In this document: piece after piece, positions 18,266 through 47,350 of the stretch
How positions within the stretch are numbered: the first letter of the stretch is position 1
Layout of the letters: each line of letters starts with the position of its first letter
Assembly: GCA_903828515.1 (NCBI GenBank)
Contig: CAIKMD010000002.1
Span: 496,001-560,000, forward strand
DNA length: 64,000 bases
Direction of reading: 5' to 3'
Origin: an uncultured Rhodospirillales bacterium
GTDB lineage: Bacteria; Pseudomonadota; Alphaproteobacteria; ATCC43930; CGMCC-115725
Program-made: the position numbers and the translations under genes
The notes under the pieces: model-generated
The model's database searches: none
The model's input: only the letters and a program-made list of their open reading frames with translations
Told to the model about the DNA's origin: nothing

Positions 18266-19083
18266 CCCAGCGCGACGAGGAACTCGAAGAAGGCAAGATG
18301 CCGCTGCTCGATCATCTGATCGAGTTGCGTAAGCGGCTGCTTTATTCGGCGCTGGCCTTGCTGATCGCCTTCGCGCCGTCGTGGTATTTCAGCAAGGACA
18401 TCTACAATTTCCTCGCCCAGCCGCTGGCCGATGCGCTCGGCCAGGCAACCGGGCGCCATCTCATCTTCACCGACTTGACTGAAGCGTTCTTCACCGATCT
18501 GCGGGTCGCGTTCTGGGCCGCGTTCTGTCTCGCTTTTCCGATCATCGCCAGCCAGATCTGGATGTTCGTCGCCCCCGGGCTCTACAAGCAGGAGCGCCGC
18601 GCCTTTTTGCCGTACATCATGGCGACGCCGATCCTGTTCATCATGGGCGGCTCGCTGGTCTACTACGTGATCTTCCCGGTCGCATGGCGCTTCTTCCTGA
18701 GTTTCGAGTCGCCCGGCGGCAACGGTTCGCTGCCGATCGAGATCGAACCCAAGGTCAGCGAATACCTTACCCTGGTGATGCGGCTGATGCTCGCCTTCGG
18801 CCTGGCGTTCCAGTTGCCGGTGCTGCTGACGCTGATGGCGCGGGTTGGGCTGATCACATCCGAGTGGCTCGCCAAGCAACGGCGCTATGCGGTCGTCCTC
18901 GTCTTTGTCGTCGCAGCCGTCCTGACTCCGCCCGATATCTTCAGCCAGGTCTCGCTGGCGGTACCGTTGCTGATCCTGTTCGAGATATCGATCTGGTCGT
19001 GCAAACTGGTCGAGAAACAGCGCGCCAAGCGTCAGGCGGAACTTGATGCCGAACTTGAAGACGATGATAAAAATTCTTCATAA
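18262..19083 (+). CDS. tatC: Twin-arginine translocase receptor TatC
   Basis: A 273-residue six-helix membrane protein. [21 protein letters not shown] is the conserved N-terminal signal-binding segment, followed by [43 protein letters not shown] and [24 protein letters not shown]. It exports folded proteins such as the twin-arginine thiamine-diphosphate enzyme encoded at 41.9 kb. It overlaps tatB by 4 nt. Confidence 0.96.
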
Positions 19084-41252: not shown

Positions 41253-41741
41253 ATGGCCGGCAGCGTCAACAAAGTCATTCTCGTCGGCAACCTCGGCCGC
41301 GATCCCGAAATCCGCTCGACCCAGGATGGTCTTCGCATCGCCAATCTGTCGCTCGCGACGTCGGAATCCTGGCGCGACAAGAACAGCGGCGAACGCAAGG
41401 AAAAGACCGAGTGGCATCGCGTCGCGGTGTTCAACGAGCGCTTGGTCGATGTCATCGAGAAATACGTCAAGAAGGGCGCGAAGCTCTATATCGAAGGCGC
41501 CTTGCAGACGCGCAAATGGACCGACAATGCGGGACAGGAGCGCTACACCACCGAGGTCGTTCTGCAACGTTTCCGTGGCGAACTGACCATGCTCGATGGC
41601 GGACGCAGCGGCGGTAGCGAAGGCGGTTTCTCCAGCGACATGCCGGAAGAAGATGCGCCGCGCCCGGCATCGCGTCCGGCCGCTCGCGCCAGCGCGGGGG
41701 CCGGTGCTTCGAAGGAACTCGACGACGAAATTCCGTTCTGA
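41253..41741 (+). CDS. ssb: Single-stranded DNA-binding protein
   Basis: 162 residues. The OB-fold begins [21 protein letters not shown], with [39 protein letters not shown] Gly/Pro/Ala-rich linker and the acidic tip DDEIPF, the partner-binding tail, follow. ATG 41253 with GGGAGA upstream; an in-frame ATG at 41208 adds 15 unsupported residues. Confidence 0.96.
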
Positions 41742-41862
41742 AAATCGGCCTGGATCGTACCCGGAGTCGCGAGGCTCCGGTTGCACGACAACCGGGTTTG
41801 TGACCTAATCAATGCAACGCCCCATACCGTGGGGCTGCTTCTTTTTCCCTGGGGAGGGAACG

Positions 41863-43821
41863 ATGTCCAAGAGCAAGAATCCGGCCGGGGTCGGCCGCCG
41901 TAATTTCCTCAAAGGTGCCGCGCTTGCTGGTGCCGCCGCGACGGCAGCCCCGTTGCAAGCGGTCGCGCAAGGGCAGACCGCGCCGCCGGCGCCGGCCAAG
42001 CTGCCGCAAGGCATTTCCGCCGTCCACAAAGCCGCCGAGACCTCGGGTTTTCCGGCGGGTGCGGCCGATCTCGTCGTCGGGACCACGGGTTCCGACTTCA
42101 TGGTCGATGCGGTCAAGACCCTCGGCATCGAATACATCACCGCGATGCCGAGTTCGGCGTTCCGCGGCATGCAGGAATCCTTCATCAACTACGGCAAGAA
42201 CACCGCGCCGGAATGGATCACCTGTCTGCACGAAGAAATTTCCGTCGCGATGTCGCATGGCTATGCCAAGGTCGAAGGCAAGCCGTTGCTGAGCCCCGTT
42301 CATGCCGCGGTCGGACTGCAACATGCCTCGATGGCGATCTACAACGCCTACGCCGATCGCGTGCCGGTCTATGTGATGACCGCCAATATCGCGAACGCGG
42401 TGGAGCGGCGGCCCGGCGTCGAGGTCGATCACACGGTACAGGATGGCGCGGCAATCGTGCGCGACTTCACCAAGTGGGACGATTCGCCGGGTGGGCTGCA
42501 GCACTTCGCCGAGTCGACGGTTCGCGCCTATCAGATCGCGATGACGCCGCCGATGGGCCCCGTGCTGATCGTCGCCGACAGCGAGATGCAGGAAAGCGCG
42601 ATCGACGAGGATGCGAAACTCTCGATCCCGAAACAGTCGCGTTTCTCGGCGGCGCAAGGCGACAGCGGCGCGGTCAAGGAACTGGCGGCGATGCTGGTCA
42701 ATGCCGAAAGCCCCGTCATCATCGCGGATCGCGGCGTGCCGGGCCCGAACGGGGTGCTGAAATCCCTGATCGAACTGGCCGAAGTTCTGCAATGCGCCGT
42801 GGTTGACGGCGGCGCGCGCATGAATTTCCCGACCCAGCATCCGCTCAACCAGGGCGATCGCAAGGGTGCGATGCTGGCGCAGGCAGATCTCGTGGTTGGC
42901 CTCGACATGACTGACTTCTGGGGCACGCTCCATTCCTATCGCGACCAGCTTCATCGTAGTTCGCGTTCGTTGTTGAAGCCGGGGGCGAAGACCGTGTCGG
43001 TTACCTCCGCGACGCAGTTCATCAAATCCAATTTCCAGAACTTCCAGCGCTTCACGGAAGTCGACATGGACATCAGCGGCGACGGCGCCGCGACACTGCC
43101 TTCCCTGATCGAGGCGGTGAAGAAAGCGATGACCGACGACAAGAAAAACGCCTTCGAGGCGCGTGGCAAAAAATATGCGACGGCTCGACTGGCCAGCTAC
43201 GAAGCGGCGAAGACCGAGGCTGCATCGGGCTGGGACGCCTCGCCGATCAGCACCGCGCGCCTGACGATGGAAGTCTGGAACGCCATCAAGAACGAAGACT
43301 GGTCGCTGGTTGGCGGCACGCAGCCCGCCGGCTACTGGTCGCACAAGCTGTGGAAGGCCGACAAATACTATAACTTCCTCGGCGACTCCGGCGCTTACGG
43401 CGTCGGTTACGGCGGCGGCGGTTCGGTCGGATCGGCGTTGGCCAATCGGAAATACGGGCGGCTGTCGGTCGCGATCATGGGCGACGGCGACCTGATGGTT
43501 TCGCCGGGTTCGCTGTGGACGGCCGCCAAGCACAAGATTCCGATCATGATGGTGATGCACAACAACCGCTATTACTTCCAGGAAGTGATGCATCTCCAGA
43601 GCATGGCCAATCGCCATATGCGCGATCCGCATACCGCGCGCATCGGTACCGAAATCGCCGATCCGAACATCGATTTCGCGAAGATGGCGCAGAGCATGGG
43701 CGTGCAGGGCTTCGGCCCGGTGACGGATCCTTCCAAGCTCGGTGCGGTGTTGAAACAGGCTGTCGCCATCGCCAAAGCCGGTGAACCGGTCCTGGTGGAC
43801 GTGGTCTCGCAAGGACGTTGA
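41863..43821 (+). CDS. Tat-exported thiamine-diphosphate enzyme (acetolactate-synthase-like)
   Basis: 652 residues. The start ATG 41863 follows GGGGAGGGAA. RRNFLKG (12-18) and the following Ala-rich stretch form a twin-arginine signal ending AVAQ. The rest has the ThDP-enzyme architecture. The PYR domain has CLHEEISVAMSHGYAKVEGKP with the catalytic Glu (Glu124) as in RHEQ of acetolactate synthase. A central domain follows, then the PP domain with GDG (540-542), 24 residues, and NN (567-568). GDG is followed by Asp, not the usual Ser/Ala. A c-type cytochrome gene begins 11 nt after the stop, so periplasmic oxidation of a 2-oxo acid or aldehyde with electrons to cytochrome c is plausible. The substrate is unknown. 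Confidence 0.85.
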   Translation: MSKSKNPAGVGRRNFLKGAALAGAAATAAPLQAVAQGQTAPPAPAKLPQGISAVHKAAETSGFPAGAADLVVGTTGSDFMVDAVKTLGIEYITAMPSSAFRGMQESFINYGKNTAPEWITCLHEEISVAMSHGYAKVEGKPLLSPVHAAVGLQHASMAIYNAYADRVPVYVMTANIANAVERRPGVEVDHTVQDGAAIVRDFTKWDDSPGGLQHFAESTVRAYQIAMTPPMGPVLIVADSEMQESAIDEDAKLSIPKQSRFSAAQGDSGAVKELAAMLVNAESPVIIADRGVPGPNGVLKSLIELAEVLQCAVVDGGARMNFPTQHPLNQGDRKGAMLAQADLVVGLDMTDFWGTLHSYRDQLHRSSRSLLKPGAKTVSVTSATQFIKSNFQNFQRFTEVDMDISGDGAATLPSLIEAVKKAMTDDKKNAFEARGKKYATARLASYEAAKTEAASGWDASPISTARLTMEVWNAIKNEDWSLVGGTQPAGYWSHKLWKADKYYNFLGDSGAYGVGYGGGGSVGSALANRKYGRLSVAIMGDGDLMVSPGSLWTAAKHKIPIMMVMHNNRYYFQEVMHLQSMANRHMRDPHTARIGTEIADPNIDFAKMAQSMGVQGFGPVTDPSKLGAVLKQAVAIAKAGEPVLVDVVSQGR

Positions 43822-43832
43822 GGAATAGCATC

Positions 43833-44192
43833 ATGAAGTTTGGTATTGTCGCTTCGGCGGCCGCGCTGGTCTTTGCCTTCGCGTCCGTCGCCTCGGCTCA
43901 GGACGCGGCGCCTGCCGGCAACGCCCAGACCGGTCAGAAAATCTTTCTCTCCGACGGGTGTTGGGAGTGTCACGGTTCGGTCGGACAGGGCGGTGCGGTC
44001 ACCGGTCCGCGTCTCGCGGCAACCGCATTACCCTATGCCGCGTTCGTCCAGCAGTTGCGGGTCCCGCAAAACGCCATGCCGCCTTACGAGACCACCATTC
44101 TCTCGGATGCGGACGCGGCGAATATCTATGCCTTCCTGAAGTCGCTCCCGGCGGCCCAGGCGGCGAAGGACATTCCGCTCCTCAACAACTAG
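43833..44192 (+). CDS. Monoheme c-type cytochrome, partner of the ThDP enzyme
   Basis: 119 residues with a Sec signal (MKFGIVASAAALVFAFASVASAQ). The heme site is CWECH (Cys43, Cys46, His47); the axial Met is in NAMPPY (Met82). The fold is class I. It lies 11 nt after the ThDP enzyme stop with its own TGAGGA ribosome site, so the two are almost certainly co-transcribed. It is the natural electron acceptor candidate. Confidence 0.87.
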   Translation: MKFGIVASAAALVFAFASVASAQDAAPAGNAQTGQKIFLSDGCWECHGSVGQGGAVTGPRLAATALPYAAFVQQLRVPQNAMPPYETTILSDADAANIYAFLKSLPAAQAAKDIPLLNN

Positions 44193-44572: not shown

Positions 44573-47350
44573 TTGGCTGATACGCCTACGCTGCCGCCGA
44601 CGTTCGACATCACGCCGGTCGCGATCGAAGACGAAATGAAACGCTCCTACCTCGATTACGCGATGAGCGTGATCGTGGCGCGGGCGTTGCCGGATGTGCG
44701 CGACGGGTTGAAGCCGGTGCATCGCCGCATCCTCTTCGCGATGAAGCAGGCGGGCTACGAGTGGAACCGCGCTTTCCGCAAATCGGCGACCAGCGTCGGC
44801 GAGGTGATGGGCAACTATCATCCGCATGGCGACGCGCCGATTTACGAGGCGATGGTACGCATGGCGCAGGATTTCGCCATGCGCCTGCCGCTGATCGACG
44901 GGCAGGGCAATTTCGGCTCGATGGACGGCGATCCTCCCGCCGCGATGCGTTACACGGAATCCCGCCTCTCGCGCGCTGCCGATGCACTGCTCGACGACAT
45001 CGATAAAGAGACGGTCGACTTCCAGCCCAATTTCGACGGCACCCGCCAGGAGCCCAAGGTTGTTCCGGCGCGCTTTCCGAACATGCTGGTCAATGGCGGC
45101 TCCGGCATCGCCGTCGGCATGGCGACCAACATCCCGACCCACAATCTCGGCGAAGTGGTCGATGCCTGCATCGCCTATCTCGACAATCGCGATATCACCA
45201 TCGAAGAGTTGATGGAGATCGTACCCGGTCCCGATTTCCCGACCGGCGGCATCATTCTCGGCAGGGCCGGTATCCACGCGGCTTATGCGCTGGGGCGCGG
45301 TTCGATCGTCGTGCGCGGTCGCGCGACCGTCGAGCAGATACGCAAGGATCGCGAAGCCATCGTCGTCACCGAGATCCCGTTCCAGGTCAACAAGGCGCGC
45401 ATGATCGAGCGCATGGCCGAGCTGGTACAGGAAAAGACCATCGAGGGCATCTCCGATCTGCGCGACGAAAGCGATCGCGACGGCGTGCGCGTCGTGATCG
45501 AGTTGAAGCGCGACGCGATGGCCGAGGTCGTGCTGAACCAGCTCTATCGCTACACGGCGCTGCAGACCACTTTCTCGGTCAACATGTTGGCGCTCGACGG
45601 CGGCCGGCCGGTGCAGATGACGCTGCGCGACATCATTCGCGCATTCGTCGAGTTCCGCGAGGAAGTGGTCACCAGGCGGACCGTCTTCCTGCTGAAGAAG
45701 GCGCGCGAACGTGCGCATACGTTGCTCGGGCTTGCCGTCGCGGTCGCCAACATCGATGCGATGATCGCCTTGATCCGCGCCTCGTCCGATCCCGCCAGCG
45801 CCCGCGCCGAAATGATGGCCCGGAACTGGCCGGCTGAAGACGTGTCGGCGCTCATCGGATTAATCGAAGAGGAAGGGCGCGGCGGCATCAGCGCCGACGG
45901 CACCTATCGTCTGACCGAAGAGCAGGCGCGTGCGATCCTCGATCTGCGCCTCCAGCGCCTGACGGCGCTCGAACGCGACAAGATCGCCGAGGAACTCGAC
46001 GGCATCGTCACCGAGATCAAGGGCTATCTCGAAATTCTCGGCTCGCGCGCACGCCTGCTCGAGGTCATTCGCGACGAATTGCGCGCGGTGAAGGAACAAT
46101 TCGCCGATCCGCGTCGAACCGTCATCGAGGATATCGAATTCGAAACCGATATCGAGCAACTGATCCAGCGCGAAGACATGGTCGTGACGGTCAGTCACAC
46201 CGGTTATATCAAACGCGTGCCGCTTTCGACCTATCGCGCGCAGCGTCGCGGCGGGCGCGGCCGTGCCGGCATGGCGATTCGCGATGAGGATTTCCTTGAG
46301 CAGGTGTTCGTCGCTTCGACCCATGCACCGGTGCTGTTCTTCACCTCATCGGGACGTGTCTACAAGCTCAAGGTCTATCGCCTGCCGGTCGGCACACCGC
46401 AGGCGCGCGGCAAGGCGATGGTCAACCTGTTGCCGAATCTGATTGCCGGCGAAACCATATCGACGGTCATGCCGTTGCCCGAGGACGAGGCCAGTTGGGC
46501 CGATCGCACGGTCGTTTTCGCGACGGCAAAGGGCAATGTCCGGCGCAACGCGATGTCGGATTTCGCCAACGTCATGGCCAATGGCAAGATCGCGATGAAG
46601 TTCGAAGGCGCCGATGCCGACGACCGTCTGATCGCGGTCGCGAGCTGCGGCCCAAGCGACGATATTCTTTTGGCGACGCGCAACGGCAAGGGCATCCGAT
46701 TCTTCGCCGCCGAAGAAGTCCGCATTTTTTCCAGCCGCAATTCAGTCGGCGTGCGCGGCATCAAGCTGGCGCCCGGCGATGCCGTGATCTCGATGTCGAT
46801 CCTGCGTCACGAGGAAGTCTCGACCGGTCAGCGTTATGCGTTCCTGCGGATGGACGCCGAGCGCCGTCGCGGCGAGGTGGAAGAGGTCGAGAGCGAAGAG
46901 GGCGATGCCGAGACCGCGGCGGCCCAACTCAGCGACGAGCAATATGCCGATCTCGCCGCGCGCCAGGAATTCGTGCTGGTGCTGACCGAGAAGGGTTATG
47001 GCAAGCGCAGTTCGGCCTACGACTATCCGATTACCGGGCGTGGCGCGCAGGGACGCGAGAACAACGACCCGTCGCGTGGCCAGGGCGCCACGGTCGCGGT
47101 GTTCCCGGTCAAGAAGGGCGACCAGCTCATGCTGGTGACCGACGGCGGCACGCTTATTCGCGTGCCGGTCGACGATATCAGCATTCGCCGGCGCCGCAGC
47201 GGCGGCGTCACCGTCCTCAAGGTGGAGGAGGGCGAGCGCGTGGTCTCCGTGGCGCGTCTTCCCGAGGCGGCGGAAGTGGTCGATAGCGGGGACGGCATCG
47301 CTTCAAGCGGCGAGGTCGAGGGTGGCGAGCAAGGGGGCGACGAGGCATGA
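44573..47350 (+). CDS. gyrA: DNA gyrase subunit A
   Basis: 925 residues from a TTG start ([35 protein letters not shown]). Catalytic Tyr128 is in AAMRYTE; the C-terminal wrapping domain has the GyrA-box QRRGGRG. The quinolone region reads GDAPIYE: Ala88 stands at E. coli Ser83 and Glu92 at Asp87. A Glu-rich insert and tail lie in the C-terminal domain. coaD overlaps its stop. Confidence 0.96.

Follow-up and report, generated by a model that had tools for sequence, protein, structure and literature searches.

Thiamine diphosphate (ThDP)-dependent enzymes are textbook cytoplasmic enzymes, and those of the acetolactate-synthase type are normally found in the cytoplasm as well. Benzoylformate decarboxylase (BFD), for instance, is a cytoplasmic, non-oxidative enzyme that carries no twin-arginine (Tat) signal and has no cytochrome partner, and E. 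coli PoxB, which uses FAD and quinone, works at the cytoplasmic face. The SorAB sulfite dehydrogenase, on the other side of the membrane, is a two-gene periplasmic dehydrogenase with its own cytochrome c. ThDP radical chemistry without flavin has been established for the 2-oxoacid:ferredoxin oxidoreductases, in which ThDP adducts are oxidized in one-electron steps (PMC5020499), and for ScyA, which takes part in scytonemin synthesis, the predicted site of action is the cytoplasm (PMC2726228). Neither the open-access literature nor curated models yielded a description of a ThDP enzyme that is exported and paired with a cytochrome. In concept, what comes closest are the cytoplasmic ThDP oxidases and those periplasmic metal or quinone dehydrogenases that have their own cytochrome.

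The window, that is, the whole analyzed stretch of 64,000 nucleotides from an uncultured Rhodospirillales bacterium, encodes a 652-residue, benzoylformate-decarboxylase-like ThDP enzyme with predicted Tat export (P0001; 41863-43821; all window features given here lie on the + strand), as judged from the open reading frame, Pfam, a structural model and fold matches. Its start codon at 41863 is preceded by a Shine-Dalgarno-like purine stretch (41851-41859), and its stop codon occupies 43819-43821. The Pfam models TPP_enzyme_N and TPP_enzyme_C are matched above their curated cut-offs and TPP_enzyme_M slightly below (29.9 vs 30.4 bits). With PYR and PP domains, a catalytic Glu and a GDG...NN motif, P0001 is a ThDP enzyme of the benzoylformate-decarboxylase/acetolactate-synthase (BFD/AHAS/POX) superfamily. 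Glu124 (codon 42232-42234) falls in the alignment column that holds the catalytic Glu of PoxB, IlvB and AHAS and the known Val of Gcl. The ThDP/Mg-binding motif GDG(540-542)...NN(567-568) spans 43480-43566, and E124, D541, G542, N567 and N568 are invariant among 49-50 relatives. His147 (42301-42303), which aligns with His70 of BFD, is nearly invariant, and no conserved equivalent of BFD His281 was seen by eye. An AlphaFold2 model built from 49 relatives (mean pLDDT 84, pTM 0.84) gave top Foldseek matches that are all ThDP enzymes (TM, target, ~0.8), the best in the PDB being HKA synthase, hydroxyacyl-CoA lyase, BFD, benzaldehyde lyase, glyoxylate carboligase and acetolactate synthase. Non-oxidative decarboxylases, lyases and ligases predominate among the closest relatives of known structure, and BFD is the nearest by sequence. 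In NCBIfam, P0001 reached no family cut-off, and general ThDP models recur across the 50 family members scanned.

The enzyme opens with a textbook-like twin-arginine signal peptide (MSKSKNPAGVGRRNFLKGAALAGAAATAAPLQAVA, then Q; 41863-41967), in which RRNFLKG at residues 12-18 is followed by a hydrophobic stretch and, as read from the sequence, an AVA/Q cleavage site after residue 35. Residues 1-48 have low confidence in the model, and homologues without the signal align to P0001 from about residue 70 onward. An RRx[FLIM] motif is present in all 89 family members with an intact 5' end, and Tat export of P0001, predicted from the motif and conserved in relatives, is strongly supported. Export through Tat rather than Sec is plausible, as the enzyme would acquire its cofactor in the cytoplasm, and the window also contains tatC, whose product forms the core of this machinery (18310-18966, contig 514310-514966; 245 bits against PF00902). 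Eleven nucleotides after the enzyme's stop codon, the ATG at 43833 opens the gene of a predicted Sec-type secreted monoheme cytochrome c of 119 residues (P0002; 43833-44192, stop codon 44190-44192), which scores over the cut-offs of Pfam Cytochrome_CBB3 and Cytochrom_C. Its heme-binding CWECH motif comprises residues 43-47 (43959-43973) and its presumed axial ligand is Met82 (44076-44078); C43, C46, H47 and Met82 are invariant in all 90 neighboring cytochromes compared, and Arg76 is kept in 89 of them. With its predicted signal peptide, CxxCH and axial Met, P0002 is a monoheme class I-like cytochrome c. The first-pass annotation of this DNA had read a strong twin-arginine signal, complete ThDP signatures and a secreted monoheme cytochrome c 11 nt 3' of the enzyme, and all three readings are borne out by the conservation among relatives.

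A genome scan returned 187 relatives, of which 80 were examined; they had been selected by mature-enzyme peptides alone, and the sampling was therefore not biased towards Tat or cytochrome. The family counts also take in additions from the source genome, a plasmid and the same bacterial family; the sampled family has identities of at least 42%, and a few of its members, four at most, duplicate a locus already counted. A CxxCH protein is encoded directly 3' of the enzyme gene in 90 of the 93 loci with enough downstream sequence, and the start offsets of the cytochrome cluster at +11 nt, so that conservation of the cytochrome beside the enzyme, for which the earlier annotation had looked to genome comparison, is upheld. 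There is no third fixed gene, since no Pfam family matches more than five of 120 neighbors, and the enzyme has no fixed partner besides the cytochrome. The pair duplicates as a unit: one locus (L058:5255-12800) has three tandem pairs, with enzymes 46-67% identical and one cytochrome each, and two others (L036 and L053) have two pairs each. Distances among the enzymes and among the cytochromes are correlated (r = 0.65; none of 2000 permutations as high), which shows co-inheritance of the two and not contact between them. Taken as a predicted periplasmic unit, the paired module almost certainly exists.

The cytochrome is absent next to the enzyme in three loci (L014, L017 and L078); it may therefore not be needed in every case, or its gene may lie elsewhere in those genomes. 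At L078 nothing obvious stands in its place, and in the two Acidobacteriota loci (L014:9950-11410 and L017:9952-11412) the next gene after that of the Tat-ThDP enzyme is an exported abhydrolase-like one. By record title, the hosts of the family are Alpha-, Beta- and Gammaproteobacteria and Acidobacteriota, most members coming from metagenome-assembled genomes. In a broad phylum sample, none of 298 other genomes held a relative at E<=1e-100, and the distribution is therefore patchy. The viral contigs searched contained no relative, and the phage records searched gave distant IlvB-like matches only. On a mobilizable plasmid of the cultured relative Caballeronia zhejiangensis (NZ_CP084287.1; L096:11752-12372), a pair whose cytochrome has two CxxCH motifs lies beside an aromatic-dioxygenase cluster.

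In a maximum-likelihood tree (quick search, support as SH-aLRT), the proteins having both Tat and cytochrome form one clade (97), sister (98) to ten proteins of 35-39% identity, including one encoded in the source genome (L094), that have neither a cytochrome nor an N-terminal extension matching the signal. Because these ten lack both, it appears that Tat export and the cytochrome were acquired jointly. Branches outside the Tat-and-cytochrome clade are long, the tree tool warns on the join of L098 with its neighbors, and the pattern matches for 'Tat' in L106 and L110 are chance occurrences of the RRxAM type. Among the other ThDP paralogues examined (from the source genome, E. coli PoxB, IlvB and Gcl, a plasmid, and the class level), a neighboring cytochrome was found only in a second clade, here called type B. 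Its member in the source genome, P0003 (L095:7504-9393), is a second Tat-bearing ThDP enzyme, 31% identical to P0001, and almost directly 3' of its gene a predicted secreted diheme cytochrome, P0004 (CTQCH, CALCH), is encoded. Within the bacterial family, four genomes retain this pair (L095:7504-10061, contig C2, from ~697503), the counterparts of P0003 in three related genomes (64-73% identity) keeping both Tat and the diheme partner. Distant type-B relatives with Tat (36-38%) have no adjacent cytochrome; they were seen in G679 (L157, L172, L173) and at L158, where within ~300 nt 3' of the ThDP gene there begins a gene whose Tat-bearing product was judged by eye to be a molybdopterin-type oxidoreductase. 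The P0003 clade stands apart from the P0001 family in the tree, which is consistent with a separate origin.

The pair in the window is bordered on the left by ssb (41253-41741) and on the right by gyrA (44573-47350), as delimited by open reading frames and locus comparison. It has this position in both genomes of the genus, the second genome's enzyme being 77% identical, and in two sister genera ssb and gyrA are immediate neighbors at seven loci; the pair is therefore an insertion in the source genus. The first-pass annotation had proposed such an insertion between genes that are 'usually neighbours in alphaproteobacteria'. The insertion stands for the genus, on two genomes and the seven sister-genera loci, and the broader statement, as examined within the order, agrees with those seven loci; many ssb loci of the order show no gyrA within the short flank covered. 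The source genome's own second copy of the P0001 family (L093, 54% identity) has different surroundings, and since this and other copies lie in differing settings, the ssb-gyrA location carries no functional information. Around that second copy (L093:1-18001) FAD monooxygenases, a GST, a hydantoinase-B-like gene and several substrate-binding proteins were named by eye. Across the family, the neighbors that recur by clustering, also named by eye, are TctC-type binding proteins (16 loci), luciferase-like proteins (12), FAD monooxygenases (11) and Rieske oxygenases (6), a hint of aromatic or carboxylate catabolism that, like the BFD-like features, may serve as a lead only. Reading the substrate from the gene neighborhood was set aside, as positions and strands vary, the families are abundant in genomes of this kind, and nothing dominates among the 120 neighbors.

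The FAD GG(G)/GSG motif is found in none of 90 family members vs all five controls (PoxB, IlvB, two Gcl and AHAS), and the central domain of the family has no GMHG-type loop. R319, N390, R396, W457, W480 and Y516 are residues specific to the family. As the family does not have the FAD motifs that known ThDP oxidases carry, electrons would have to pass from ThDP to heme without a canonical flavin. Missing motifs are not the same as a missing flavin, and FAD could be bound at a non-canonical site of the enzyme. A terminal oxidase subunit, COX1, is encoded in the source genome, and we infer that oxidation would take place in the periplasm, with electrons delivered to the respiratory chain. Redox coupling of the enzyme to its cytochrome is probable, and for coupling without flavin the chances appear evenly balanced. 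About evenly poised, too, is the full reading, in which the two genes would encode a flavin-free periplasmic ThDP:cytochrome c oxidoreductase converting a 2-oxo acid or aldehyde to a carboxylate.

Under the oxidoreductase reading, the enzyme would bind ThDP in the cytoplasm and then be exported folded via Tat. In the periplasm, a 2-oxo acid would add to ThDP and be decarboxylated, or an aldehyde would add and be deprotonated, and the resulting enamine would be oxidized by the docked partner cytochrome c in two one-electron steps with no intervening flavin. Hydrolysis of the acyl-ThDP would release the carboxylate, and the reduced cytochrome would pass its electrons to the terminal oxidase. Direct oxidation of the enamine by the cytochrome is favored because no other partner of the enzyme is fixed, the FAD signature is absent, and flavin-free one-electron oxidation has a precedent; from this we infer the ThDP adduct as electron donor, direct transfer, and a carboxylate product. 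A wider proposal, held with slightly less than even confidence, is that of a new class of periplasmic, flavin-free ThDP:cytochrome c oxidoreductases, to which cytoplasmic decarboxylase-like enzymes would have given rise at least twice (with monoheme and with diheme partners) and which would have spread through Proteobacteria and Acidobacteriota, the heme protein oxidizing the ThDP-bound intermediate directly.

It may be, though we consider it unlikely, that the enzyme is a non-oxidative periplasmic decarboxylase, lyase or carboligase that makes or splits an aldehyde or acyloin, the cytochrome serving an unrelated or later oxidation. Such an activity would accord with BFD, benzaldehyde lyase and acetolactate synthase being nearest by sequence and fold, with the lack of an FAD site in the family, and with the three loci that lack a cytochrome; however, no conserved dehydrogenase is present to use the cytochrome instead, which is the sole fixed partner, and one cytochrome per enzyme is kept in tandem copies. 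Distinctly less probable is a ThDP oxidase in which FAD or another carrier at an altered site would relay electrons to the cytochrome, making it a periplasmic functional counterpart of PoxB. The well-known ThDP oxidases of the superfamily do use FAD, and a flavoprotein would likewise be exported folded via Tat, yet the FAD motifs retained by every known FAD-binding member compared are missing throughout the family, and P0001 scores 147 bits against BFD and 85 bits against pyruvate oxidase. That enzyme and cytochrome are genomic neighbors under shared regulation with no common reaction is very improbable, for although the distance correlation is also expected from co-inheritance, the two genes stay adjacent in two phyla and in many gene contexts that have nothing else in common, and both features are present or absent together when compared with the sister clade.

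With coupling to the cytochrome as the preferred reading, the pair may be set against the known systems. P0001 resembles BFD (best PDB match 4q9d, also 1bfd) in its ThDP fold, catalytic Glu, His147 and lack of FAD motifs, but it is only ~21% identical and scores 147.2 bits vs the curated BFD cut-off of 493. PRK08327 'thiamine pyrophosphate-requiring protein' (NF006203), its best NCBIfam match and one shared by 50 of the 50 members scanned, gives 213 bits vs a cut-off of 456, the non-exported sister L094 scoring 226. Like PoxB, P0001 is proposed to feed electrons from ThDP chemistry to respiration; unlike PoxB, its family lacks the FAD motif. With PFOR/OFOR, P0001 would share the oxidation of a ThDP intermediate in single-electron steps and without flavin (PMC5020499), whereas those enzymes are cytoplasmic, use Fe-S clusters and CoA, and belong to another family, P0001 having no OFOR Pfam match and no invariant Cys among 49-50 relatives. 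ScyA, also a ThDP enzyme, belongs to a pathway that is periplasmic in some of its steps but, unlike P0001, is itself predicted to be cytoplasmic. If the proposal is true, ThDP would presumably be loaded beforehand and carried through Tat with the enzyme, and soil and freshwater bacteria would have a means of oxidizing aldehydes or 2-oxo acids in the periplasm that needs no flavin, PQQ or molybdenum. The arrangement of an exported cofactor enzyme with an adjacent small c-type cytochrome is that of SorAB, whose SorB the type-B partner P0004 resembles below cut-off; SorAB-type pairs are built on molybdenum or PQQ enzymes, whereas P0001 is a ThDP enzyme. Apparent export, together with the near-constant neighboring cytochrome, suggests an outside-facing respiratory ThDP enzyme of a kind so far undescribed, and coupling to its own cytochrome would give ThDP chemistry a third electron outlet besides FAD and iron-sulfur.
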